Source: Methanobrevibacter millerae (GTDB taxonomy: Archaea > Methanobacteriota > Methanobacteria > Methanobacteriales > Methanobacteriaceae). Taken from it: DNA of 64,000 nucleotides. Both the position numbers and the translations under genes were made by a program. The notes beneath the pieces are model-generated. The model made no database searches, was not told where the DNA came from, and saw nothing but the letters and a program-made list of their open reading frames with translations. Positions 1-18,589 of this stretch are shown here, in pieces (positions within the stretch are counted from its first letter, which is position 1; each line of letters begins with the position of its first letter). The DNA is taken from NCBI RefSeq assembly GCF_900103415.1, contig NZ_FMXB01000005.1, positions 85,319-149,318 of the forward strand, written 5' to 3'.

Positions 1-748
1 TGCAAACTATGACATTGAAAGGGCTGAACACGGCATCATTTACCTCGATGAAATAGACAAGATTTCCAAGAAGGACGAAAACTTATCCATTACAAGAGAT
101 GTTTCCGGCGAAGGCGTTCAGCAGGCACTTCTAAAAATCATTGAAGGTACTATTGCCAGCGTACCTCCTCAAGGCGGACGAAAACATCCTACACAGGATA
201 TGCTAATCATTGACACAAGCAATATCCTTTTCATATGTGGCGGAGCATTCGACGGGCTTGACCATGTTGTAGAAAGCCGTATCGGAAAAAAATCCATAGG
301 ATTCAATGCCGACATTCAGGACAAGTCCGGAATAGTCAATTCTGAAATGCTCAAGGAGATTCAGCCTCAGGATCTTGTCAAGTTCGGACTCATCCCTGAA
401 CTGGTGGGCCGTGTTCCTGTTGTAGTAACCCTTAATCCGCTTGATGAGGATGCCCTCGTAAGCATTCTTACAGAACCTAAATCAGCTATCGTGAAGCAGT
501 ATAAGGAGCTATTTGCATATGATGGCGTTGAACTTGAGTTTGAAGAGGATGCCCTCAGAGAAATCGCCAGGGAAGCCATGGACAGGGATACCGGCGCCAG
601 AGGACTTAGAGCCATTCTTGAAAATATAATGGTTGACATCATGTTCGAGATTCCATCCGACAACAGCATCACCAAGGTCATCATAACAAAGGAAACTGTA
701 ACGGAAGGGACAAATCCCGAGATATTACATGAATACTGCGCAATATGA
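1..748 (+). CDS. clpX: ATP-dependent Clp protease ATP-binding subunit ClpX, C-terminal part
   Basis: The frame is open from base 2, so the N-terminus lies outside the window; about 249 residues are visible. ClpX is a hexameric AAA+ unfoldase that feeds substrates to ClpP. Seen here are the Walker B stretch [11 protein letters not shown], the ClpX signature [20 protein letters not shown], the pore-loop region RKHPTQ, the arginine-finger region [16 protein letters not shown] and the sensor-2 motif [10 protein letters not shown]. The zinc-binding domain would lie upstream and cannot be checked. ClpX is a bacterial protein that is absent from most archaea, so its presence beside methanogen genes suggests lateral acquisition (inference). 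The stop codon overlaps the ATG of a 24-codon reading frame by ATGA. A clpP partner may lie outside the window. Identity is very secure. Confidence 0.95.
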
Positions 749-4195: not shown

Positions 4196-4247
4196 TTCCC
4201 AAATCAAAATTAGTTTTGGCTGACACCCATTTAATAGCTGTTTTAAA

Positions 4248-4317
4248 AGGCAGCATCCAGAATCTAACTGAACCTGCATGGTTTAAGCCATGTGCCTCAC
4301 CATAGGGCCATACCACC
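4248..4317 (-). tRNA. tRNA-like gene with a six-base anticodon loop (degenerate, Leu-UAA-like?)
   Basis: Folds as acceptor GGTGGTA/TGCTGCC, D-stem GCC/GGC, anticodon stem CATGG/CCATG with a loop of only six bases (CTTAAA), and T-stem TTCAG/CTGGA with loop TTAGATT, which lacks the invariant C56. If C and T are positions 32 and 33, the anticodon would read TAA, but there is no long variable arm as expected for Leu. Most likely a decayed or repurposed tRNA. Confidence 0.45.
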
Positions 4318-4321
4318 AAAA

Positions 4322-4394
4322 CGGTCCAACCGGGAATCGAACCCGAATCGACAGGCTGACAACCTGCCATGTTAGCCATTAACACTATTGAACC
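4322..4394 (-). tRNA. tRNA-Asp(GTC)
   Basis: Acceptor GGTTCAA/TTGGACC with one G-T pair, anticodon loop TTGTCAG on stem GCAGG/CCTGT, T-arm with TTCGATT. Well-formed; CCA is not encoded. Confidence 0.85.
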
Positions 4395-4407
4395 AATATT
4401 ACTTAAA

Positions 4408-4480
4408 TAAGCCTGAGGGATTCGAACCCCTGACATCCACCTTGTAAGGGTGACACTCTGCCAAACTGAGTTACAGGCTT
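4408..4480 (-). tRNA. tRNA-Val(TAC)
   Basis: Acceptor AAGCCTG/CAGGCTT fully paired, anticodon stem TCACC/GGTGG with loop CTTACAA, T-loop TTCGAAT. Canonical. Confidence 0.85.
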
Positions 4481-4487
4481 ATATGAA

Positions 4488-4560
4488 TGCTACATCGGGG
4501 ATTTGAACCCCGCTTATCGGATCGAAAGTCCGACGTACTTGCCGAATATACTAATGTAGC
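4488..4560 (-). tRNA. tRNA-Glu(TTC)
   Basis: Acceptor GCTACAT/ATGTAGC, anticodon stem TCGGA/TCCGA with loop CTTTCGA, T-arm CGGGG/CCCCG. Canonical, discriminator A. Confidence 0.85.
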
Positions 4561-4615
4561 AATTAAATCACCATATCTTAACATGAATCCTCCCTTTAAC
4601 AACAATAGCATTAAA

Positions 4616-4690
4616 GTAGGCCAGGGGGATTCGAACCTCAATCTTCGGATAAACAGTCCGACATTCTACCTTATTAAACTTAGATTCCTA
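4616..4690 (-). tRNA. tRNA-Asn(GTT)-like, probably degenerate
   Basis: The anticodon arm is intact (TCGGA-CTGTTTA-TCCGA). The acceptor has three consecutive mismatches next to the body and the T-stem has two (TGAGG against CCCCC). A second, better Asn tRNA lies at 4860-4932. Likely a decaying copy. Confidence 0.5.
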
Positions 4691-4691
4691 A

Positions 4692-4764
4692 AGGGCATGG
4701 AGGGACTTGAACCCCCGACCTTCGGGTTAGAAGCCCGATGTTCTTCCAACTATACTACACACCC
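4692..4764 (-). tRNA. tRNA-Arg(TCT)
   Basis: Acceptor GGGTGTG/CATGCCC, anticodon stem TCGGG/CCCGA with loop CTTCTAA, T-loop TTCAAGT. Well-formed. Confidence 0.85.
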
Positions 4765-4768
4765 AAAG

Positions 4769-4843
4769 TAACGGGGGTTGGATTTGAACCAACGACCTCA
4801 AGGTCATGAGCCTTGCATACTTTCCAGACTATACCACCCCGTT
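4769..4843 (-). tRNA. CAT-anticodon tRNA (Met or Ile2)
   Basis: Acceptor AACGGGG/CCCCGTT, anticodon stem CAAGG/CCTTG with loop CTCATGA, T-arm GTTGG/CCAAC. Four CAT-type genes occur in this array; one may be the modified-C34 isoleucine tRNA. Confidence 0.8.
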
Positions 4844-4859
4844 ATTCAAATAATTATGA

Positions 4860-4932
4860 CGCTTGTGACAGGACTCGAACCTGCAGTATTTCGATTAACA
4901 GCAGAACGCATTACCTGCTATGCTACACAAGC
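4860..4932 (-). tRNA. tRNA-Asn(GTT)
   Basis: Acceptor GCTTGTG/CACAAGC, anticodon loop CTGTTAA on a stem with one T-C mismatch, T-arm GCAGG/CCTGT. Probably functional. Confidence 0.75.
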
Positions 4933-4940
4933 ATTTTAAA

Positions 4941-5013
4941 TAGTCCTACCCGGATTCGAACCAAGAACACGGGGTCCAAAGCCCCACATGATTGCAAATT
5001 TCACCATAGGACT
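4941..5013 (-). tRNA. tRNA-Gln(TTG)
   Basis: Acceptor AGTCCTA/TAGGACT, anticodon stem TGGGG/CCCCG with loop CTTTGGA, T-loop TTCGAAT. Canonical. Confidence 0.85.
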
Positions 5014-5041
5014 AAAGATATTGAATTTTACAGTTTTGAAA

Positions 5042-5112
5042 CGGTATGGCCGGGAATTGAACCCGAATCGAAGGGGTGACAACCCAACATACTGCCACTA
5101 TACTACCATACC
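5042..5112 (-). tRNA. tRNA-Asp(GTC), second copy, weak anticodon stem
   Basis: Acceptor GGTATGG/CCATACC is perfect, but the anticodon stem pairs only three of five bases around loop TTGTCAC. At 71 nt it is shorter than its neighbours. Possibly impaired. Confidence 0.65.
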
Positions 5113-5116
5113 AAAA

Positions 5117-5190
5117 ATGGAACTACCGGGACTCGAACCCGGGTCGACGGATCGAAAGTCCATCAGGATTGCCACTACCCTATAGCTCCA
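5117..5190 (-). tRNA. tRNA-Glu(TTC), second copy
   Basis: Acceptor TGGAGCT/AGTTCCA, anticodon stem ATGGA/TCCGT with loop CTTTCGA, T-arm CCGGG/CCCGG. The body differs from the Glu copy at 4488-4560, so it is not a recent duplicate. Confidence 0.75.
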
Positions 5191-5213
5191 TGAAATGTTA
5201 AAAACATTTTGAA

Positions 5214-5286
5214 TCGGGAATATGGAACTCGAACCCATGACAAGCCAGTCTACAGCCGACCGCAATAGCCGCTATGCCACTTCCCG
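5214..5286 (-). tRNA. tRNA-Tyr(GTA)
   Basis: Acceptor CGGGAAG/ATTCCCG with the last pair mismatched, anticodon stem GTCGG/CTGGC with loop CTGTAGA, T-loop TTCGAGT. Confidence 0.75.
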
Positions 5287-5305
5287 AAATAATTTTATTG
5301 TAAAA

Positions 5306-5379
5306 TGGGCCATACCGGATTTGAACCGGCGACAAGGTGCTCTTCAGGCACCCGCTCTACCTGACTAAGCCAATGACCC
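5306..5379 (-). tRNA. tRNA-Phe(GAA)
   Basis: Acceptor GGGTCAT/ATGGCCC, anticodon stem GGTGC/GCACC with loop CTGAAGA, T-arm GCCGG/CCGGT. Canonical. Confidence 0.85.
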
Positions 5380-5586
5380 AAAAATTATTCAATATATTAA
5401 AAATACGCTTGAGTAATATAATTTAAGCTATTCAAAACATATTTATGGTAATTATCCTTTGCAATCACCATAAATGTAAAAAAAAGAGATAGATGATCTT
5501 TATTTACAAGAACGGTGATTTTAACAATCCTGCTCTTCATTAAACCTATACATATTTATCATCAATTATTATTTTATTTTGAATTA

Positions 5587-5614
5587 TATATAAATGACGT
5601 AAAGCATTCACTTT
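5587..5614 (-). promoter_or_regulatory. TATA promoter with palindromic upstream element (tRNA cluster)
   Basis: Minus strand AAAG-TGAATG-CTTT-ACGTCA-TTTATATA. It lies in the 400-bp gap 5380-5779, which otherwise shows nothing coding, and faces the tRNA cluster at 4248-5379. Confidence 0.6.
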
Positions 5615-5690
5615 ACATTAACTTCAGCCAAACGAACAATAGACATTTGGCCAACCATACATAATCTAATTAAATATCTGTTCAAATGAA

Positions 5691-5718
5691 TATATAACTC
5701 ACATAAAGCTTTTACTTT
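5691..5718 (-). promoter_or_regulatory. second TATA promoter with palindromic element (tRNA cluster)
   Basis: Minus strand AAAG-TAAAAG-CTTT-ATGTGA-GTTATATA, same geometry as the copy at 5587, about 100 bp upstream of it. Confidence 0.6.
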
Positions 5719-5779
5719 ACATTAACAATATCCTTTTTACAGATTCATCAGATTACATGGAAGTCATCGATGTGACTAA

Positions 5780-5844
5780 TGAAATGTAGAGGAATCGAAC
5801 CTCAGACTCTCGCTATGAGCGTGTTTCCAAAACACCACCATTTC
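5780..5844 (-). tRNA. shortened tRNA-like gene with CAT
   Basis: Only about 64 nt plus discriminator. Acceptor GAAATGG/ACATTTC (one mismatch), a compact D-arm GTG...CAC, and T-arm GAGG-TTCGATT-CCTC are recognisable. The anticodon region is reduced, with CTCATAG on poorly paired flanks. Either a truncated pseudo-tRNA or a minimal non-canonical one. Confidence 0.45.
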
Positions 5845-5864
5845 AAATAATGATTACTTACCTT

Positions 5865-5900
5865 TGGTCTAATTGGCTGTATGCAAAACCAATTAGACCA
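5865..5900. repeat. perfect 12-bp inverted repeat within the tRNA array
   Basis: TGGTCTAATTGG and CCAATTAGACCA flank a 12-base loop. It lies between two degenerate tRNA-like genes and resembles two facing tRNA D-arm or half-tRNA pieces. It could be a processing signal, a terminator without a T-run, or a recombination scar. Confidence 0.6.
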
Positions 5901-5925
5901 CACAAACTACTGAAAGTTACATTAA

Positions 5926-5995
5926 TGGAGCCATCATGACTGAAGTCAATGCCCCCTGTGCTAGAGAGGCCATCATTAAGCCAAATTACAGCTCC
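5926..5995 (-). tRNA. degenerate tRNA-like gene, apparent anticodon AGC (Ala-like)
   Basis: Acceptor GGAGCTG/TGGCTCC pairs with two wobbles. The anticodon stem CCTCT/AGGGG carries loop CTAGCAC, giving AGC, an A34 anticodon that archaea do not normally use. The T-arm lacks the TTCRA motif and instead forms TGACT-TC-AGTCA. Likely a pseudo-tRNA. Confidence 0.4.
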
Positions 5996-5999
5996 TTAA

Positions 6000-6072
6000 A
6001 GCTTTAACTGGGACTTGAACCCAGATGACTACCTTCGCAGAGTAGCATGTTATCCAATTACACCATTAAAGC
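6000..6072 (-). tRNA. tRNA-Arg(GCG)
   Basis: Acceptor GCTTTAA/TTAAAGC, anticodon stem CTACT/GGTAG with loop CTGCGAA, T-arm CTGGG/CCCAG. Well-formed. Confidence 0.8.
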
Positions 6073-6080
6073 TTATTGAA

Positions 6081-6153
6081 TGGATCTGATGGGACTTGAA
6101 CCCACGACCACTGGGATATGAGCCCAGCCCTCTACCAACTGAGATACAGATCC
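6081..6153 (-). tRNA. tRNA-Met(CAT)
   Basis: Acceptor GGATCTG/CAGATCC, classic D-arm TCTCAGTTGGTAGAG, anticodon stem CTGGG/CCCAG with loop CTCATAT, T-loop TTCAAGT. The best-formed CAT gene in the array. Confidence 0.85.
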
Positions 6154-6169
6154 ATCGCATAACAATTCA

Positions 6170-6240
6170 ACGACCTAGTGGGATTCGAACCCACATCATT
6201 TGCTTAGAAGGCAAACATTCTTCCATTAAATTATAGATTC
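6170..6240 (-). tRNA. tRNA-Arg(TCT), second copy, acceptor end eroded
   Basis: Anticodon stem TTTGC/GCAAA with loop CTTCTAA and T-arm GTGGG/CCCAC are intact. The first two acceptor pairs do not form (GA against CG). Confidence 0.65.
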
Positions 6241-6268
6241 AAATTGAGTTTAATTAACCATAAGATAA

Positions 6269-6342
6269 AGGGCATAAGGGGATTTGAACCCCTGATTTCC
6301 GGCTTACAAGGCCAGCGCATTAACCTGCTATGCTACATGCCC
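6269..6342 (-). tRNA. tRNA-Thr(TGT)
   Basis: Acceptor GGGCATG/TATGCCC, anticodon stem CTGGC/GCCGG with loop CTTGTAA, T-arm AGGGG/CCCCT. Canonical. Confidence 0.85.
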
Positions 6343-6344
6343 AA

Positions 6345-6419
6345 TAACGGGAATCGGATTTGAACCGATGATTACGAGGTTATGAGCCTCGCGTGTTTTC
6401 CAGACTACACCATCCCGTT
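6345..6419 (-). tRNA. CAT-anticodon tRNA (Met or Ile2), second of this type
   Basis: Acceptor AACGGGA/TCCCGTT, anticodon stem GCGAGG/CCTCG with loop CTCATAA. Closely similar to the gene at 4769-4843, so a duplication pair. Confidence 0.8.
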
Positions 6420-6480
6420 GAAAGAGAAATAACGAAAACGTTATTGTTAATTAAATATATTAAACCTAAATCCATTACTC

Positions 6481-6517
6481 CCGAAGCAGCGATGTTAACC
6501 ATTAACACCACATCCTC
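6481..6517 (-). pseudogene. 5' half of a tRNA-Gly-like gene
   Basis: The minus strand reads GTGGTGTTAATGGTTAACAT followed by CGCTGCTTC, the D-arm and anticodon-stem start typical of Gly tRNA. It then diverges; no T-arm follows. A truncated tRNA. Confidence 0.5.
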
Positions 6518-6595
6518 AAGATATTAATATTAAAAGCTGTAAAAAATCCATAATGCTAAGGAAATGAAAAAAAGAAATTGGTTTTTGATTAATGT

Positions 6596-6706
6596 TCAAT
6601 CAATAAGCCCAAAGTTGGACTTATACCAATACCTAATGCATTCCCATACAGACATATCCTGTCTACATCCAGTAAATCTTGTACAACTTGGGCATTCATA
6701 ATTCAT
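6596..6706 (-). CDS. 36-residue Cys-rich microprotein, putative zinc binding
   Basis: A short frame starting at ATG (6706) after TTTGATGATTATT, a spacing resembling other starts here. The peptide begins MNYECPSCTRFTGC and contains a fourth Cys later in WECIRYWY, so four cysteines in a C-x2-C-x5-C-x8-C pattern could bind one metal. It lies between the tRNA array and a duplicated promoter that faces it, so it would be transcribed ahead of the tRNA genes. No homologue is recognised. The GACCT/AGGTC hairpin near 6760 may belong to its 5' leader. Confidence 0.4.
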   Translation of the reverse strand: MNYECPSCTRFTGCRQDMSVWECIRYWYKSNFGLID

Positions 6707-6798
6707 AATAATCATCAAATTTAACTCATAATTAGATTTCATCTTTGGCAAGGCTACCTCGACCTCCACAGGTCATGGCAGTTGAATGGAAATCTAGA

Positions 6799-6924
6799 TA
6801 ATAATCTATTCCAAATCATATATAAATCACATAAAGCCATTGCTTTATCTAATGATTCCCTTTTGAAACCTATATAATAATCTATTCCAAATCATATATA
6901 AATCACATAAAGCCTTCGCTTTAT
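6799..6924 (-). promoter_or_regulatory. tandemly duplicated palindromic TATA promoter
   Basis: A unit of about 48 bp occurs twice with a period of 76 bp. Each copy holds the element AAAG-N6-CTTT-ATGTGA-TTTATATA on the minus strand (6819-6846 and 6895-6922). The two copies differ mainly in the N6 spacer (CAATGG and CGAAGG). They face the microprotein and the tRNA genes at 6419 and below. Confidence 0.65.
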
Positions 6925-6958: not shown

Positions 6959-9900
6959 TTAACTTCTTATGGTTATTTTATTTGAAATAGCTGCGCCGTT
7001 TTCATACATTGACGTGATGATGTATTCGCCGGGCATTAAGTTAATGTTTAAGCGAGCAATACCATTTTCATCAGTCGGCTTATCATAGAAAACCCCGTTA
7101 ATGTTAAATGTAATCTCCTGATTAGCATGAGGATTTCCTTGACCATCAAGCAATGTTGCCTCAAACTTGCTTCCATCCTTATATCTCATTGAAAGGTTTT
7201 CAGCTTTTAAAATAGGCAATACTTTAACGGTATTTGACATCATCAAACCATTATACTCAATAGTTGCAATGTAAGTGCCCGGATTCAAGTTAATGTTCAT
7301 GTTGACATAACCTGATGCATTGGTAGTTCTGGTATAGAATACACCATTGATATTTATTTTGGCGCTTACACCCGCACCAACAGGATTGCCCTGACTGTCA
7401 AGTAGCCTGAAAGTAAACTGGGATGCATTCTTATAGTATTTTGTCAAATCATGATTTTCTACTATTGAAGACAGTACAGTAATGACATTTGTATACTGTT
7501 CGGTGGAGTTTGGATTTGTAGCTGTAATAATATAAGTTCCAGGGTTTAAATTAATGTTCATTTTTGCAACACCCTGATCATTGGTAGTTCTGGTGTAGAA
7601 AACTCCATTAATATTGAATTCAACGTCAGTGTTCTTCAATAAGATGCCTTTTGTATCAACAAAGGTAGCATAGTACTGAGTATCATTTCTGTAAATCTTA
7701 GTCACATTTTTTCCTGAAATAGTGGATTTGACAGTAATTGTTGAGTTAACCTTAATGCCTTCAAATTCACTGGTTACATTATAAACACCGCTGTTTAAGC
7801 CAATGGCCATTGACGCCTGACCCTTGCTGTCAGTGGTTCTATTGTAATTAACTCCATTAAGTGTAATGGTTACATTTTTGCCTGATACAGGATTGTTATC
7901 CCCGTCTTTAACAGTTACAACAAATTTTTCAGGACCTTTATAATACTTGGTTAAATCCGGAGCAGAAACATCATATTTTTTCTCAATATTAAACCAAATA
8001 GTATTGGAAGTGGAATTTATATGATTGAGGTCTCCATTATAAACTGCGGTTACAGTATAGTTACCAGCATCCAAATCAGTTAAAATCCAAATAACCTCAT
8101 GACCACACACTTCAGACTTTAACTCCTCACCATTAACATTGAATACAAGTTGACCGCCGGCAGAGGATGGAGTAACATTAGCAATCAAAGCAACACTATT
8201 ATTAGCAAATTTTTCAAAAGACAAATCGGTTTTGGTAGCTACTTTATTAATAGTGATTTTTGAAGTTGCATAATTGTAATCATCAGTTATATTAACTGGA
8301 TAAACGCCCACATCAAAATCTGCTTTAAGATAAGCTTTTCCATTACCATCAGTTGCTTTATTATAAGTTTGATTATTGGTCATAATTTTAATCAAAAAAT
8401 ATGGGATAGTATTATTATTAAGATCATATACTGTAACTGTGAATTCTTCAGAACCATTATAATCTTTAATTAATTCCGGAGCGTCAAATCTAACATACTC
8501 ATATGCATTTACATAAAAAGTATTTGAATAAACATCCTCAACCCATTTTCCGTCTTCATAATATCCATAATCATATTGTACTACAATCATGTGATTTCCT
8601 TTTGATAAACCGGGAATAGTCTTTACTAATTTGCCGCTGTCAATGCTATAAAATTCAGAATCTTTGCCATCGACAGAAATACTTACAAAACTGAAATCGC
8701 GAGGCGGTGCAGTCACAGTCATGTTAAAATCATATCCTACAGGCACTTCTTCTGGAACGTCAACTTCCACATTTTCACTGTTTTCAATGATATTCAATTC
8801 CTGAATTGAATAGTATTTGCCTGATCCCAGGGTGTCATATTCCAGATAAAATTTGTTCAATCCTAAAGTGTCGCTTGATATGGTTACTGATGAAAGACCC
8901 TTGTTAATCACGTTGGAGGCAATGAGGTCTCCCTTAACATCGCCAGCATAATCATAAACGTCAAATTTTCCGCCATTAACCCATTCATGAGTTATCATGG
9001 AAATCGTGAATTTCTCGCCAAGGCTCGCATAATAGGGAATTGTGACGCCGGGAGTAACGATAATGGTTCCATTGGCAGTTAACGTACCGAAATCATCCCC
9101 TTCATAAATGGCCGTGACTAGTGTTTCGCCAAGATACTGGACGTACCAAGCATAAATCATATGTTCGGCATAGCCATCGGAATAAGGAACATCAAATACA
9201 TGATTATTATACTTTATAGTCAGGTTGCCTGTTGCTTCTCGAGGCAAATAGATATAAGCAGTATTGTCTGCCCTCAAATATTGAACGTCAAAATAAAAAC
9301 TCATTTCAAGCTTAGGTTCTGAAGGTTTAGGTCCGATTACTTGAACTATTTCATCCCTTAAAGTTTCAGTAGCTGAACTGTCCGTGAATGTGATTTTAAT
9401 GTCATAAGTACCGTAATCATCCAAAATATCGCTAGGCGCAAGATATCTGGATTTGTTGCTGCAATCAGGTATTTCATCAAAAGCCCCGTCAGTCACGTTG
9501 AAATAGGTCTTGCGAGTACCGTTTACAAAAATCTCCAAGGTTCCGGTGCGGTTATGGTTTGAATCTATAATAATGAAGCTAGGATAATCGAAATAATCCT
9601 CATCATCACAAGAATAAGGATTCACAATGTAAAAATCAAAATCATCCTTTTCCTTTAAAGTCACCTGATTGTCAATCAAGGTATTTCCATCGAATTTAAC
9701 TTTAATATTGTAGTTTCCAGTGTCTAGGGACAAGTTAGCGGGATAAATATATTCGAAAGTCTTATTGTATTTGCCGCCCATTCCATCATCTTCAATTGAA
9801 AAATAGCCGTTTGTAAGTGGAACGTTTAACTTTTCATTGTCATCGACCAGAAAACTGAAAGTTCCATTTTTTTGAGAATATGATGAAATGTAGATTACAT

Positions 9901-10126
9901 CCCTTGAATTCCAATCCTTTTTATCCCAAGTATAATCTTCCTGAACAGTTATATAAAAATCGTCGTCATAATACTGGCCACCCAATTCATCAGATACATC
10001 TGCAGGTGAAATGTCACTTTCCAAGACATTATCTTCCGGTACAATATCATCTGATGCGCTTACTGCAGTAAGCATTAATATAGCCAGTACAAAAATACTT
10101 GCCAATAAATATTTATTTAATTTCAA
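6959..10126 (-). CDS. secreted adhesin-like protein with C-terminal Ig-like repeats
   Basis: 1055 residues with a Sec-type signal peptide (about 1-24, KLNKYLLASIFVLAILMLTA then VSA/S). The middle is made of beta-rich Ig-like modules, and the last 340 residues are at least four repeats of about 80 residues with the core INGVFYTRTTNxxGxxxMNINLNPGTYI, as in adhesin-like proteins of Methanobrevibacter. Such proteins are displayed on, or released from, the pseudomurein wall and mediate contact with host or partner cells. No C-terminal membrane anchor or wall-binding domain is seen, so the attachment is unclear. The start codon is TTG at 10126, after GAGGTTGAT. It is transcribed alone. Confidence 0.85.
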   Translation of the reverse strand: MKLNKYLLASIFVLAILMLTAVSASDDIVPEDNVLESDISPADVSDELGGQYYDDDFYITVQEDYTWDKKDWNSRDVIYISSYSQKNGTFSFLVDDNEKLNVPLTNGYFSIEDDGMGGKYNKTFEYIYPANLSLDTGNYNIKVKFDGNTLIDNQVTLKEKDDFDFYIVNPYSCDDEDYFDYPSFIIIDSNHNRTGTLEIFVNGTRKTYFNVTDGAFDEIPDCSNKSRYLAPSDILDDYGTYDIKITFTDSSATETLRDEIVQVIGPKPSEPKLEMSFYFDVQYLRADNTAYIYLPREATGNLTIKYNNHVFDVPYSDGYAEHMIYAWYVQYLGETLVTAIYEGDDFGTLTANGTIIVTPGVTIPYYASLGEKFTISMITHEWVNGGKFDVYDYAGDVKGDLIASNVINKGLSSVTISSDTLGLNKFYLEYDTLGSGKYYSIQELNIIENSENVEVDVPEEVPVGYDFNMTVTAPPRDFSFVSISVDGKDSEFYSIDSGKLVKTIPGLSKGNHMIVVQYDYGYYEDGKWVEDVYSNTFYVNAYEYVRFDAPELIKDYNGSEEFTVTVYDLNNNTIPYFLIKIMTNNQTYNKATDGNGKAYLKADFDVGVYPVNITDDYNYATSKITINKVATKTDLSFEKFANNSVALIANVTPSSAGGQLVFNVNGEELKSEVCGHEVIWILTDLDAGNYTVTAVYNGDLNHINSTSNTIWFNIEKKYDVSAPDLTKYYKGPEKFVVTVKDGDNNPVSGKNVTITLNGVNYNRTTDSKGQASMAIGLNSGVYNVTSEFEGIKVNSTITVKSTISGKNVTKIYRNDTQYYATFVDTKGILLKNTDVEFNINGVFYTRTTNDQGVAKMNINLNPGTYIITATNPNSTEQYTNVITVLSSIVENHDLTKYYKNASQFTFRLLDSQGNPVGAGVSAKININGVFYTRTTNASGYVNMNINLNPGTYIATIEYNGLMMSNTVKVLPILKAENLSMRYKDGSKFEATLLDGQGNPHANQEITFNINGVFYDKPTDENGIARLNINLMPGEYIITSMYENGAAISNKITIRS

Positions 10127-12212: not shown

Positions 12213-13217
12213 TTATGTTCCAACATATCTGCTAAAATCGTTTTTATATCTGCAAATATAATCATTTTCAGGCATTTCATATTTAAAAATTGATTGTAAA
12301 TTAAGTAATGTTAATTTAAGACCATATTTCAACTCAGTTTTTTCAAGATAAATTGGAATAAGAGGAATATCTTCATGAATAGCTAAAAAAATCTCATCAC
12401 GCACATTTTTTGATTCAACAGAATTAGGAGTCAGGAAAACAATGAATAATGAAGAATCCTCTAATGCCGTTTCAACTACTTCTTGCCATCCCTCACCAGA
12501 ACGAATTCCATCATCATACCAAATTTTAAATCCATCTTCATGAAAACGTTTTAATTCAGCAAAAACTTCTTTTGCATCAACATGAGCATAACTTGCAAAA
12601 ATATAACGCTCCGATCCAGAATATGCATCAAAAGGACGGTCAATCATGTGGATAGGATAATCTGTACCCATTCCTTCAGTGCCAAAAACATCAACAGTAA
12701 TTTTAGGTTTGGAAATGAAATTAATTTTTCCACCACTAATAAAAGGTTCTAATGTTTCCAATTGATTTTCACATATTTTAATAGAACCATTATTTAAAAT
12801 AGAATACTTAGAATTATTATTTTGAGAGAAACTGCAATTTATAATTTTTAATTCGGAATTATTAACTATATCATTACCATCATTTTTAGCCACATTATTT
12901 ATAAATTGACAATTATTTAATTCTAACTGACCATTATTTCGAATAACCCCTCCATAACCCTTACCATCTGCAAAAAGTCCTGTTGGAGCTTTACCATTTT
13001 TAAAAATAAAATTTTTTAAAACTACATTTTTTCCAGTAACATTAAAAATACGGTTTTTTCCATTAGCATCAATAGTATGGCCATTACCATCAATGGTCAA
13101 ATTATTATTCCTAATATCAATACTCCTATTTAAACTTATATCATAATTTAAAGAAACATAACCTTCCTTTTGAAAAATTAATGCTCTAAGATGATTATGA
13201 TCTCTTACATCCTCCAT
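12213..13217 (-). CDS. beta-helix protein fused to a C-terminal TIR domain
   Basis: 334 residues, no signal peptide. Residues 1-190 are a parallel beta-helix with the family entry motif (LTIDGNGHTIDANGKNRIF, then VVLKNFIFKNG) and shortened coils. Residues about 203-334 are a TIR domain: strand A RYIFASYAHVD, strand B with FKIWYDDGIRSGEGW, strand C SLFIVFLTPNSVESKNVRDEI and strand D DIPLIPIYLEK. The Glu in RDEI (about residue 274) occupies the place of the catalytic Glu of NAD-cleaving TIR domains. TIR enzymes in prokaryotes usually act as abortive-infection effectors or signal producers; here the beta-helix would be the sensor or oligomerisation part (inference). Transcribed alone, with a weak SD. 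Domain assignments are secure; the activity is predicted. Confidence 0.85.
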   Translation of the reverse strand: MEDVRDHNHLRALIFQKEGYVSLNYDISLNRSIDIRNNNLTIDGNGHTIDANGKNRIFNVTGKNVVLKNFIFKNGKAPTGLFADGKGYGGVIRNNGQLELNNCQFINNVAKNDGNDIVNNSELKIINCSFSQNNNSKYSILNNGSIKICENQLETLEPFISGGKINFISKPKITVDVFGTEGMGTDYPIHMIDRPFDAYSGSERYIFASYAHVDAKEVFAELKRFHEDGFKIWYDDGIRSGEGWQEVVETALEDSSLFIVFLTPNSVESKNVRDEIFLAIHEDIPLIPIYLEKTELKYGLKLTLLNLQSIFKYEMPENDYICRYKNDFSRYVGT

Positions 13218-16303: not shown

Positions 16304-18589
16304 ATGGGTTTCTTGGATAGAGTTAAAGGATTCAAATCAAGTAAAAACTTTCAATATCTCGACAATTTAATCAATAGGGGAGTTAAAGAGATTGTGCTTG
16401 ACTCAGATATCATATTGGGACATAATGAAAGAAAAAAATTTGGACAAGGAATCAAATTAGATGTAGATAATCTCATTATTGATGGAAATGGCCATACAAT
16501 AAATGCTAAAGGTAAGACACGGATATTTTACTGTATGGGTAAAAATATTACTATTAAAAATATTATATTAAAAAATGGATATGCAAAAGAGTGTGGTGGA
16601 GCAATATATAATAATGGTGAGTTGCACATTATTGAATCTAGAATCCAAAATAATACAGTAAAAGATAAAGGGGGAGCTATATACAATAATGAGAATAGTG
16701 AGTTGAGTATCATCAAATCCATACTACAAAATAACACTGCAAAACGTTTAGGAATTATGGACCCTAGTACAGGTGGAGCAATATACAATCATATAGGTAA
16801 GTTGAATATATCTGAATCTACACTATGTGATAATATAGCAATAAATAATGGTGGAGCAATATACAATCATGGTTATTTGACTATCTCTAAATCCACTCTA
16901 ATAAGAAATGTTGCGAAAAAGTTTAGAGGAGGTGCAATATTCAATCTTAATAGTGTTTCAAGTATTACAGAATCTATATTTCAGGAAAATTCAACAAAAA
17001 AGGGTGGAGCAATATATAATGCATCTAGTATATTGGACATCACTAAATCTACATTAACAGATAACACAGCAAAAAAGGGTGGAGCTATATTAAATTATCT
17101 TGGTAAAATAAAAATTACTGAAACTACCATAACAGATAACACAGCAAAAGATGGTTCTGGTATATTACATTGTGAAGGTGATTTAAAGATTTTTAGTTGT
17201 GAATTTATAAATAATAAATCTCAAGACTATAATATTATTTTAAATAAAGGTGCTTTACAGATTCATAATACTACTTTTAGAGATAATCAATCAAAATATA
17301 TTGTATTGAATGATGATGGATCTAATTTAGGTATTTTCAATGGAGAATTTAAAGAAAATAATATAGAAGAATCCGTAATAAGTAATTGTGGAAAATTCTG
17401 CAGTATTGAAAAAACAATATTTCAAAATAATATTTCAAATAATGCTGTGAATATAATAAATGAAAGCGAATTAACTCTAACAGATCCTAAAATAAAGGAT
17501 GAAGGAAAAACAATAATAAATCGAAATTATGTACTTATAAAACAATCATCTCCAAATCTTGAAAGTCAAATTTATGGGGGAACTGTTAAATATATTGATC
17601 AATTATATGAAGAGAATAACTTTGATTTTAGTTATTTAGATAAAAAAATTCATGAAAATAATTCTAAAGATATAATTCTAGATCATGACATAACCTTTCG
17701 AGATTACGAAAGAGATTACTATGAAGGAGGGATAGAACTAGATATAGACAACTTAACTATAGATGGAAATGGGAAAACTATAGATGGGGCAGACAAAACA
17801 CGAATGTTTATCATAACTGGAAAAAACATCACTCTTAAAAATATAATCTTTAAAAATGGACACTCACACAAAAACTATGATAATTTATTAAATAATAATG
17901 GGGGAGCTATAAAAATTAACCACAATATTAACTTAACAATAGAAAATTGTAAATTCGAAAATAATATATCAGAAGATGGTGGTGGAGCTATACATAATAA
18001 TAATGGTGAACTGAACATAAAAGAATCCACATTAACAGATAACATAGCAAATGATGGTAGTGGTGGAGCTATACATAATAATAATGGTGAACTGAACATA
18101 AAAGAATCCACATTAATAAATAACACAGCAATACGAGGTAGTGGTGGAGCTATACATAATAATAATGGTGAACTGAACATAAAAGAATCCACATTAATAA
18201 ATAATATTGTAAAAGGCCAATCACTTTCAAAAGTTGGTGGGGGAGCAATATCTAGTTATGGAGGCATATTAACCATCACTGGATCCCTACTAAAAAATAA
18301 CATGGCGAGAGGTTCAATGGCTGGTTGTGGTGGGGCAATATACAATATAAGTTGTAAATTGGAGATTAATAAATCTAAGTTACAATATAACACCGCAGAA
18401 GGTTCAGGATTGGTCTCTGAGGGTGGTGGAGCCATATACAATTGTGGTGAACTGAACATTAAAGAATCCATATTAACAGATAACACCGCTAAAGATAGTA
18501 GTGGGGGAGCCATATACAATGATGATGAAAAATTATTCATTATTGAAAGTTCTAAATTAGAAAATAATAAACCAAACGATGTAAACTGA
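16304..18589 (+). CDS. leaderless double beta-helix repeat protein
   Basis: 761 residues without a signal peptide (MGFLDRVKGFKSSKNFQYLD), so cytoplasmic. Two lobes each begin with the family entry module: residues about 20-95 (IVLDSDIILG, LIIDGNGHTINAKGKTRIF, NITIKNIILKNG) and about 440-525 (YEGGIELDIDNLTIDGNGKT, MFIITGKNITLKNIIF). Between and after are many coils of 24-27 residues with the pattern GGAIYNxGELxIxESTLxxNTA. Three coils at 17981-18223 are near-identical at DNA level (81-bp units). The start at 16304 follows GGTGTGAT. It is paralogous to the protein at 23343 and lies between two decayed regions. Likely a binding scaffold; ligand unknown. Confidence 0.85.
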   Translation: MGFLDRVKGFKSSKNFQYLDNLINRGVKEIVLDSDIILGHNERKKFGQGIKLDVDNLIIDGNGHTINAKGKTRIFYCMGKNITIKNIILKNGYAKECGGAIYNNGELHIIESRIQNNTVKDKGGAIYNNENSELSIIKSILQNNTAKRLGIMDPSTGGAIYNHIGKLNISESTLCDNIAINNGGAIYNHGYLTISKSTLIRNVAKKFRGGAIFNLNSVSSITESIFQENSTKKGGAIYNASSILDITKSTLTDNTAKKGGAILNYLGKIKITETTITDNTAKDGSGILHCEGDLKIFSCEFINNKSQDYNIILNKGALQIHNTTFRDNQSKYIVLNDDGSNLGIFNGEFKENNIEESVISNCGKFCSIEKTIFQNNISNNAVNIINESELTLTDPKIKDEGKTIINRNYVLIKQSSPNLESQIYGGTVKYIDQLYEENNFDFSYLDKKIHENNSKDIILDHDITFRDYERDYYEGGIELDIDNLTIDGNGKTIDGADKTRMFIITGKNITLKNIIFKNGHSHKNYDNLLNNNGGAIKINHNINLTIENCKFENNISEDGGGAIHNNNGELNIKESTLTDNIANDGSGGAIHNNNGELNIKESTLINNTAIRGSGGAIHNNNGELNIKESTLINNIVKGQSLSKVGGGAISSYGGILTITGSLLKNNMARGSMAGCGGAIYNISCKLEINKSKLQYNTAEGSGLVSEGGGAIYNCGELNIKESILTDNTAKDSSGGAIYNDDEKLFIIESSKLENNKPNDVN
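17981..18223 (+). repeat. three tandem 81-bp coding repeats
   Basis: Units starting at 17981, 18062 and 18143 are nearly identical (GGTGGAGCTATACATAATAA, then AATGGTGAACTGAACATAAA). Each encodes one 27-residue beta-helix coil. The high DNA identity shows recent unit duplication. Confidence 0.85.

Follow-up and report, generated by a model that had tools for sequence, protein, structure and literature searches.

A second tRNA gene set in Methanobrevibacter millerae with leader reading frames that may sense tRNA depletion

The window analyzed here (G000:C5:85319-149318, a 64,000-nucleotide stretch of the 2.72 Mb Methanobrevibacter millerae genome, assembled in 48 contigs) carries on its minus strand a dense array of transfer RNA (tRNA) genes that is part of a second tRNA set, a separate lineage whose structure is under selection and which is not simply decaying. 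We propose, with a probability of roughly 0.55, that this is one block of a complete reserve set of archaeal-type tRNAs in a rumen-type Methanobrevibacter, arranged in modules of promoter, leader, short open reading frame (ORF), T-run and tRNA genes, released when ribosomes stall on a depleted codon. To a broader form of the proposal, a self-sensing emergency supply in which leader ORFs sampling the codons of the whole set control a complete second set by ribosome stalling, we give slightly less than even odds.

A total of 79 tRNA matches was found genome-wide. Scattered regions hold 38 tRNAs with a mean G+C of 0.59, and four array blocks contain 41 ARAGORN genes with a mean G+C of 0.52 that together serve 20 amino acids. 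The blocks are the window array (4248-6517, minus strand), C5:74024-74441 (Met, Asn, Cys, Ile), C8:49568-50940 (Pro, Lys, Val, His, Gly, Trp, Ser, Ala) and a class II block at C5:83013-84081, which lies outside the window, about 5.5 kb from the window array and on the opposite strand, and comprises five Leu, two Ser and two Thr genes plus degenerate ones. The class II tRNAs missing from the window array, an absence that the first-pass annotation of this DNA had described correctly, are thus in this separate Leu/Ser/Thr block. Within the window array ARAGORN predicts 17 genes (4248-6419, within 2.2 kb), the Rfam tRNA model gives 18 matches over threshold, and a covariance model made from array tRNAs recognizes 16 sound genes and 4-5 degenerate ones (4247-6517), the possible fifth being a very weak trace at 5925-5995; the earlier estimate of about twenty genes with several degenerate members agrees with this count. 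Genome comparison revealed a canonical copy elsewhere for every window isotype, so the redundancy noted earlier is real, and these tRNAs are not, as would have refuted the earlier reading, mostly sole copies of essential isoacceptors. For Ala-TGC and Leu-CAA, encoded in the other blocks, no canonical copy was found in the genome regions examined, possibly owing to an assembly or search gap. Homologous arrays occur in the same genus in genomes G022, G034 (RUG344), G039 (RUG10921), G051 (RUG13973) and G060, and in another genus in M. ruminantium M1 (G085), G088, G094 and G097.

The sound tRNAs of the window array have 0.5 non-standard pairs of 20, compared to 0.78 in the canonical set of the host, so the broken stems reported in the first-pass annotation are not a property of these members. 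A set of 18 isotype groups drawn from ten genomes has standard pairs in 2600 of 2677 cells (97%), and compensatory double changes occupy 429 pair cells vs. 21-60 after sliding the partners by 1-3 columns, in an alignment fitted to the covariance model, which favours model pairs. Decay of the sound members was rejected by these stem-quality and covariation tests; the term "acquired, decaying set" used earlier fits only the 4-5 degenerate members. Most array tRNAs show about 75-92% identity to those of other species' arrays vs. mostly 45-73% to the host tRNA for the same amino acid. The host match of the array Gln tRNA is 78%, and a few tRNAs are exceptions to a closer array match, among them the window genes for Arg-TCT (4692), Asn (4858) and Gln (4940). 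The 7-base anticodon loops are mostly equal to those of the host, with differences in Asp, His, Arg-GCG, Gly-GCC and Pro. Nuclease resistance through changed anticodon loops was consequently rejected as a general property. The spares may simply replace lost molecules, or may differ in body recognition. The idea of a store of tRNAs, also put forward in the first-pass annotation, fits a full set that is redundant, separately evolved and structurally maintained and that is found together with RNA ligase and RlaP genes of the RNA-repair type.

In the array modules a short ORF sits between a distal TATA box and the first tRNA, and the boxes lie 214-650 nucleotides (nt) before that tRNA, in contrast to mostly 20-100 nt for those canonical genes in which a box could be located. 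The following window features are all on the minus strand, and the promoters were located by motif scan. The TATA box of the distal promoter P1a (TTTATATA; 6895..6902) stands behind an AAAGC..GCTTTA palindrome, and that of promoter P1b (6819..6826) is 407 nt before the first sound tRNA. Leader ORF 1, MNYECPSCTRFTGCRQDMSVWECIRYWYKSNFGLID (6596..6706), is a class I leader with 7 homologous leaders in which the frame is kept; it is followed by a T7 run (6567..6573), a candidate termination site, and by a T6 run (6541..6546) before the first tRNA, located in a GAYTTTTTACA box that is common to most class I leaders in the alignment. Further on are the TATA-like box of an internal promoter P2a (5690..5697) and the TATA box of an internal promoter P2b (5587..5594), 214 nt before tRNA-Phe. 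Leader ORF 2, MINMYRFNEEQDC (5521..5562), starts at the first ATG after P2b, and a T8 run 35 nt after the ORF (5478..5485) is a candidate termination site. The AAAGY..RCTTT palindrome was considered as a private array operator and rejected, since it also precedes ordinary protein genes and is a general promoter element. An extra 14-codon ORF (MTCGGRGSLAKDEI; 6740-6780, minus strand) lies between promoter P1b and leader ORF 1.

The leaders belong to five unrelated lineages: class I (8 copies), class II (6 genomes), the M. ruminantium type (4 genomes), window ORF 2 and the ORF MFSSMYWPCNQSSCHSCNE of G022. In the 18 homologous leaders, which form three groups, frame 0 of the sense strand alone is free of stops and all indels are multiples of 3; the chance that all members stay open under neutral substitution is of the order of 1e-3 per group, calculated for a star tree. 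The class II and M. ruminantium-type ORFs have a conserved start context of the GTGATAAAATG type, GTGAT-A(2-4)-ATG. A search of 67 genomes with two leader patterns (up to 3 mismatches) returned 8 and 6 sites, all of them before arrays. With the start taken as the first ATG downstream of the TATA box, the leader is identified correctly in 7 of 16 modules, including window ORF 2 and the G022 ORF but not window ORF 1. The leader ORFs are thus conserved, and they are presumably translated.

Codon content was assessed as coverage, the fraction of ORF codons served by the tRNAs behind the ORF, in comparison with dinucleotide shuffles without stops. Four of the five leader lineages match their own array in composition beyond shuffles, the match of class I being weak. 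Window ORF 2 has a coverage of 0.92 vs. 0.52 (p 0.0015), with 11 of 12 codons specifying amino acids of downstream tRNAs, and the G022 ORF reaches 0.94 vs. 0.66 (p 0.001); the choice of these two ORFs is independent of composition because each is the first ATG after its TATA box. The leaders of M. ruminantium M1 (0.98 vs. 0.84) and G094 (0.96 vs. 0.80) both give p 0.0005, and those of G088 and G097 give p of about 0.05. The M. ruminantium leader draws on 17 amino acids, and its array serves every one of them; Thr and internal Met are absent from leader and array alike. Class II leaders, which precede Leu/Ser/Thr arrays, consist of 39-56% Leu, Ser and Thr, with a coverage of 0.36-0.50 vs. 0.20-0.28 (p from below 0.0005 to 0.027 in five genomes); for the G022 class II leader the Leu+Ser+Thr test gives p 0.0115. 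In the class II leader of the window genome, the Leu codons CTG, CTT, TTG, TTA and CTA are the exact cognates of the five Leu anticodons of the array, CAG, AAG, CAA, TAA and TAG.

All six genomes have, at the end of the class II ORF, a hairpin of about 13 pairs that spans the stop codon and continues into a U-run (z score -2.5 to -4.9). In class I leaders the start of the ORF can pair with its end; five pairs of this helix have both partners changed in the consensus fold, T-runs lie further on, and except for the window copy the folds have z scores of -2.2 to -3.0. The two ends of leader ORF 1 can pair, GCCCAAGTTG with CAACTTTGGGC. In either design, class I or class II, a ribosome positioned within the ORF would prevent the structure from closing.

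From these sequence features we infer the following circuit, in translation, stalling, termination and readthrough as well as in tRNA damage as the natural trigger. The leader ORF would be translated and would sample codons read by the tRNAs behind it. With charged tRNAs plentiful, the ribosome would complete the ORF and leave, a hairpin at or across the ORF would form, and transcription would stop in the leader. When a tRNA is depleted, e.g. by the cut of a tRNA-targeting toxin or defence nuclease, the ribosome would stall within the ORF and block the hairpin, and RNA polymerase would then read into the array and supply replacement tRNAs. Starvation and cleavage both stall ribosomes, but only cleavage is relieved by making tRNA, and therefore tRNA loss appears to be the likelier natural input. 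The purpose of large redundant tRNA arrays is a standing question, and a codon-matched leader makes a testable circuit, with depletion of a named tRNA as input and replacement tRNAs as output, in a system that is carried by the sequenced strain M. ruminantium M1. If true, leader-peptide control would extend to archaea and to tRNA genes, the regulated product being the tRNA pool itself, and the loss of tRNAs, perhaps by toxins or antiviral nucleases, would be suggested as a regular threat to rumen methanogens.

Several RNA-repair genes are associated with the arrays. An Rnl5-like RNA ligase (PF09414 plus PHA02142 OB fold), with Naegleria NgrRnl (5cot) as its best PDB match, is encoded on the same strand as the C8 array and has its start 87 nt downstream of it. 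The ligase is present in five of six array genomes of the genus vs. 3 of 61 others, and in two of four array genomes of the M. ruminantium genus vs. none of 15 others, i.e. in 7 of 10 vs. 3 of 76 for both genera (P about 2e-6, ignoring phylogeny). RlaP is encoded beside a C5 array in the window genome; in other array genomes ligase and RlaP form a pair distant from the array. Thg1 is beside the array of G051; in G034 about 5 kb separate it from the array. A TROVE/Ro60 protein has been reported for 20 of 29 archaeal clusters (PMC6333295); none was seen among the array neighbours tested, and no genome-wide TROVE search was made. In several array genomes, genes for Csm6-type HEPN ribonucleases are found close to an array or to the ligase-RlaP pair (L076:5721-7010, L079:11926-13200, L157:8065-9354).

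The window genome shares its GTDB genus with several uncultured Methanobrevibacter genomes. In both genera most genomes lack the array, which in its own genus is absent from about 60 of 67 species, and arrays occupy different chromosomal sites in different species. The arrays of G034, G039, G051 and G060 have flanking genes in common, and in M. ruminantium and relatives the loci checked have the array between genes for a 449-amino-acid adenylosuccinate lyase and a 156-amino-acid Pyridox_ox_2 protein. The G034 and G060 arrays also adjoin a Pyridox_ox_2 gene, 67-71% identical. This flavin mononucleotide-binding split-barrel gene thus stands beside arrays in two genera, on the upstream side in one genus and on the downstream side in the second (L075:6548-7018, L077:9716-10186, L173:9566-10036, L216:7041-7511). 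No integrase, capsid or other viral hallmark was recognized among the array neighbours tested with Pfam, a scan that did not include every ORF. With this result and with conserved chromosomal neighbours in related species, the earlier remark that such arrays are typical of mobile elements and viruses finds no support here. The class I leader is on no viral contig, and a viral origin was rejected, the virus-like arrays of G045 and G015 being of another kind. These virus-like contigs, L171 (G045:C1:14000-33900) and L172 (G015:C97), encode 13-18 tRNA genes, homing endonucleases, a DUF2828 RNA-binding protein, a tape-measure-like protein and Thg1, and C97 of G015 also has an apparent tRNA-Pyl. The array on G014:C119 was set aside on account of its CCA-like ends and 8% contamination.

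A number of observations weigh against control of the array by ribosome stalling. Class I coverage is weak, 0.69 vs. 0.54 (p 0.04) for window ORF 1 and 0.39 vs. 0.26 (p 0.02) for the C5a leader, with the others not significant and the C8 class I leader below expectation at 0.29 vs. 0.38. Leaders within a group are related, so that per-genome p values are not independent, and the amino-acid sets of the arrays were assigned after the leaders had been seen. Leader ORF 1, the first window copy, has a fold only slightly, and not significantly, better than that of shuffles (z score -1.2), and a mutually exclusive antiterminator is not demonstrated in the leaders. Non-synonymous changes exceed synonymous ones in the leader ORFs; conservation of the peptide therefore lends no support, though this pattern suits a codon sampler. 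Finally, with anticodon loops mostly as in the host, protection from anticodon nucleases is not evident. The leader ORFs could instead be real without being codon sensors, serving ribosome-polymerase coupling through a long leader or acting as an RNA-processing or protein-binding element, with the tRNAs constitutive or otherwise controlled. The class I leaders of the genus, with conserved RNA structure (the five double-changed pairs) and a weak composition match, and the unconserved peptide sequence would agree with such a role, which we nevertheless consider unlikely: four lineages match their own array beyond shuffles, the 39-56% of Leu, Ser and Thr in class II leaders suits the Leu/Ser/Thr arrays they precede, and the M. 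ruminantium leader, with its 17 array-served amino acids, lacks Thr and internal Met in step with its array.

It is also conceivable that the array is a constitutive supplement without a sensor, which raises tRNA dose or adds isoacceptors; the redundant isotypes and the finding of Leu-CAA and Ala-TGC only in arrays here are in line with this, and translation efficiency has been proposed as a role (PMC6333295). Such a supplement would hardly account for TATA boxes 214-650 nt upstream with an ORF in between, for the separate lineage of the array tRNAs or for the roughly 60 of 67 species that live without an array, and it appears quite improbable. Still less credence can be given to the earlier proposal that the array came from a virus or mobile element and is decaying. 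It has in its favour the 4-5 degenerate members, the different chromosomal sites in different species and the other tRNA arrays on the virus-like contigs G045:C1 and G015:C97, but the stem quality equals that of canonical tRNAs, compensatory change is strong, flanks are shared between species with the same Pyridox_ox_2 neighbour in two genera, and the class I leader is missing from viral contigs.

Read in the direction of the minus strand, the window array starts with a degenerate tRNA-Pro-like element at 6432..6517 (18.8 bits with the covariance model; by eye it resembles the array tRNA-Pro of G039). The sound genes on this strand were each called by ARAGORN and the covariance model: an initiator-like tRNA-Met (CAT) at 6345..6419, also called by Rfam and 86% identical to the RUG344 array Met, tRNA-Thr (TGT) at 6269..6342, tRNA-Arg (TCT) at 6170..6240, a tRNA with a CAT anticodon (Met or Ile2) at 6080..6154, and tRNA-Arg (GCG) at 5999..6073 (88% to the RUG344 array). 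A degenerate tRNA-like element at 5779..5844 (36.1 bits) is followed by tRNA-Phe (GAA) at 5305..5380, tRNA-Tyr (GTA) at 5213..5287 (87% to the G022 array Tyr, 49% to the host Tyr), tRNA-Glu (TTC) at 5117..5190, tRNA-Asp (GTC) at 5041..5113, tRNA-Gln (TTG) at 4940..5014, tRNA-Asn (GTT) at 4858..4933, an initiator-like tRNA-Met (CAT) at 4768..4843 and tRNA-Arg (TCT) at 4692..4764. After a degenerate element at 4615..4687 (39.9 bits; GTTT in the loop, Asn-like by eye) come tRNA-Glu (TTC) at 4487..4561, tRNA-Val (TAC) at 4406..4482, tRNA-Asp (GTC) at 4321..4395 (92% to the G060 array Asp, 63% to the host Asp) and, at 4247-4317, a degenerate tRNA that is probably Cys-derived (29.6 bits; by eye it resembles the RUG344 array tRNA-Cys).

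The class II array is adjoined by a ClpP protease gene (PF00574, 2e-84; L031:18378-18962, plus strand), then a ClpX-like ATPase (window 200-748, plus strand), a bacterial-type ClpXP in an archaeon. About 6 kb from the window array, the protein encoded at 12213-13217 (minus strand) ends in a C-terminal TIR_2 domain (Pfam; weak ThsB_TIR) and is possibly the product of a defence gene; PADLOC gave nothing firm near the array. The region is crowded by large adhesin-like proteins with Ig-like and Chlam_PMP repeats (window 6959-10126, minus strand, and 16304-18589, plus strand; L031:295-3699, minus strand), as is usual in rumen Methanobrevibacter.

Ribosome-mediated attenuators of bacteria, such as the trp, leu and his leader peptides, have a short ORF after the promoter that is rich in codons linked to the product. 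The array modules resemble them in the post-promoter short ORF, with product-tied codons in four of the five lineages and weakly so in class I, and in a terminator-like hairpin with a U-run, which is clear in class II. They differ in being archaeal, in having tRNAs rather than biosynthetic enzymes as product, in ORFs that sample up to 17 amino acids, and in that an antiterminator is not demonstrated. No report of leader peptides with tRNA genes or of ribosome-mediated attenuation in archaea was found in the literature, with thin coverage of subscription journals. RNA-repair systems with an RNA ligase and RlaP were reportedly treated by Burroughs and Aravind in 2016. The Rnl5-like ligase and RlaP next to arrays in the window genome, and Thg1 near the G034 and G051 arrays, recall such systems, but in other array genomes the ligase/RlaP pair is distant, and a tRNA array replaces rather than mends. 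The large redundant tRNA set is shared with phage tRNA arrays described as anti-defence (PMC10264068, PMC11555353) and with mycobacterial tRNA array units (PMC12803027), both proposed to replace nuclease-cut tRNAs, in the phage model with resistance through anticodon-loop changes (PMC10264068). Unlike these, the Methanobrevibacter array is chromosomal with conserved neighbours, its anticodon loops are mostly unchanged, and leader ORFs are present. Archaeal tRNA gene clusters, defined as at least 10 tRNA genes at a density of at least 2 per kb and including those of M. ruminantium M1 and RUG344, have been described with redundant isotypes, pseudogenes and a suspected non-canonical role, and no evidence of mobile elements was found for the methanogen clusters (Morgado and Vicente 2019, PMC6333295). 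The window array falls within that definition, and the published clusters are these very arrays, those of RUG344 corresponding to G034:C31 and C21 and that of M1 agreeing in coordinates with L173. That study describes no leader ORF, selection test, RNA-ligase link, separate tRNA lineage or complete second set in one methanogen. Thus, tRNA clusters in Methanobrevibacter were already known; what appears to be new is the presence of leaders, the separate and maintained lineage, and the link to the ligase.

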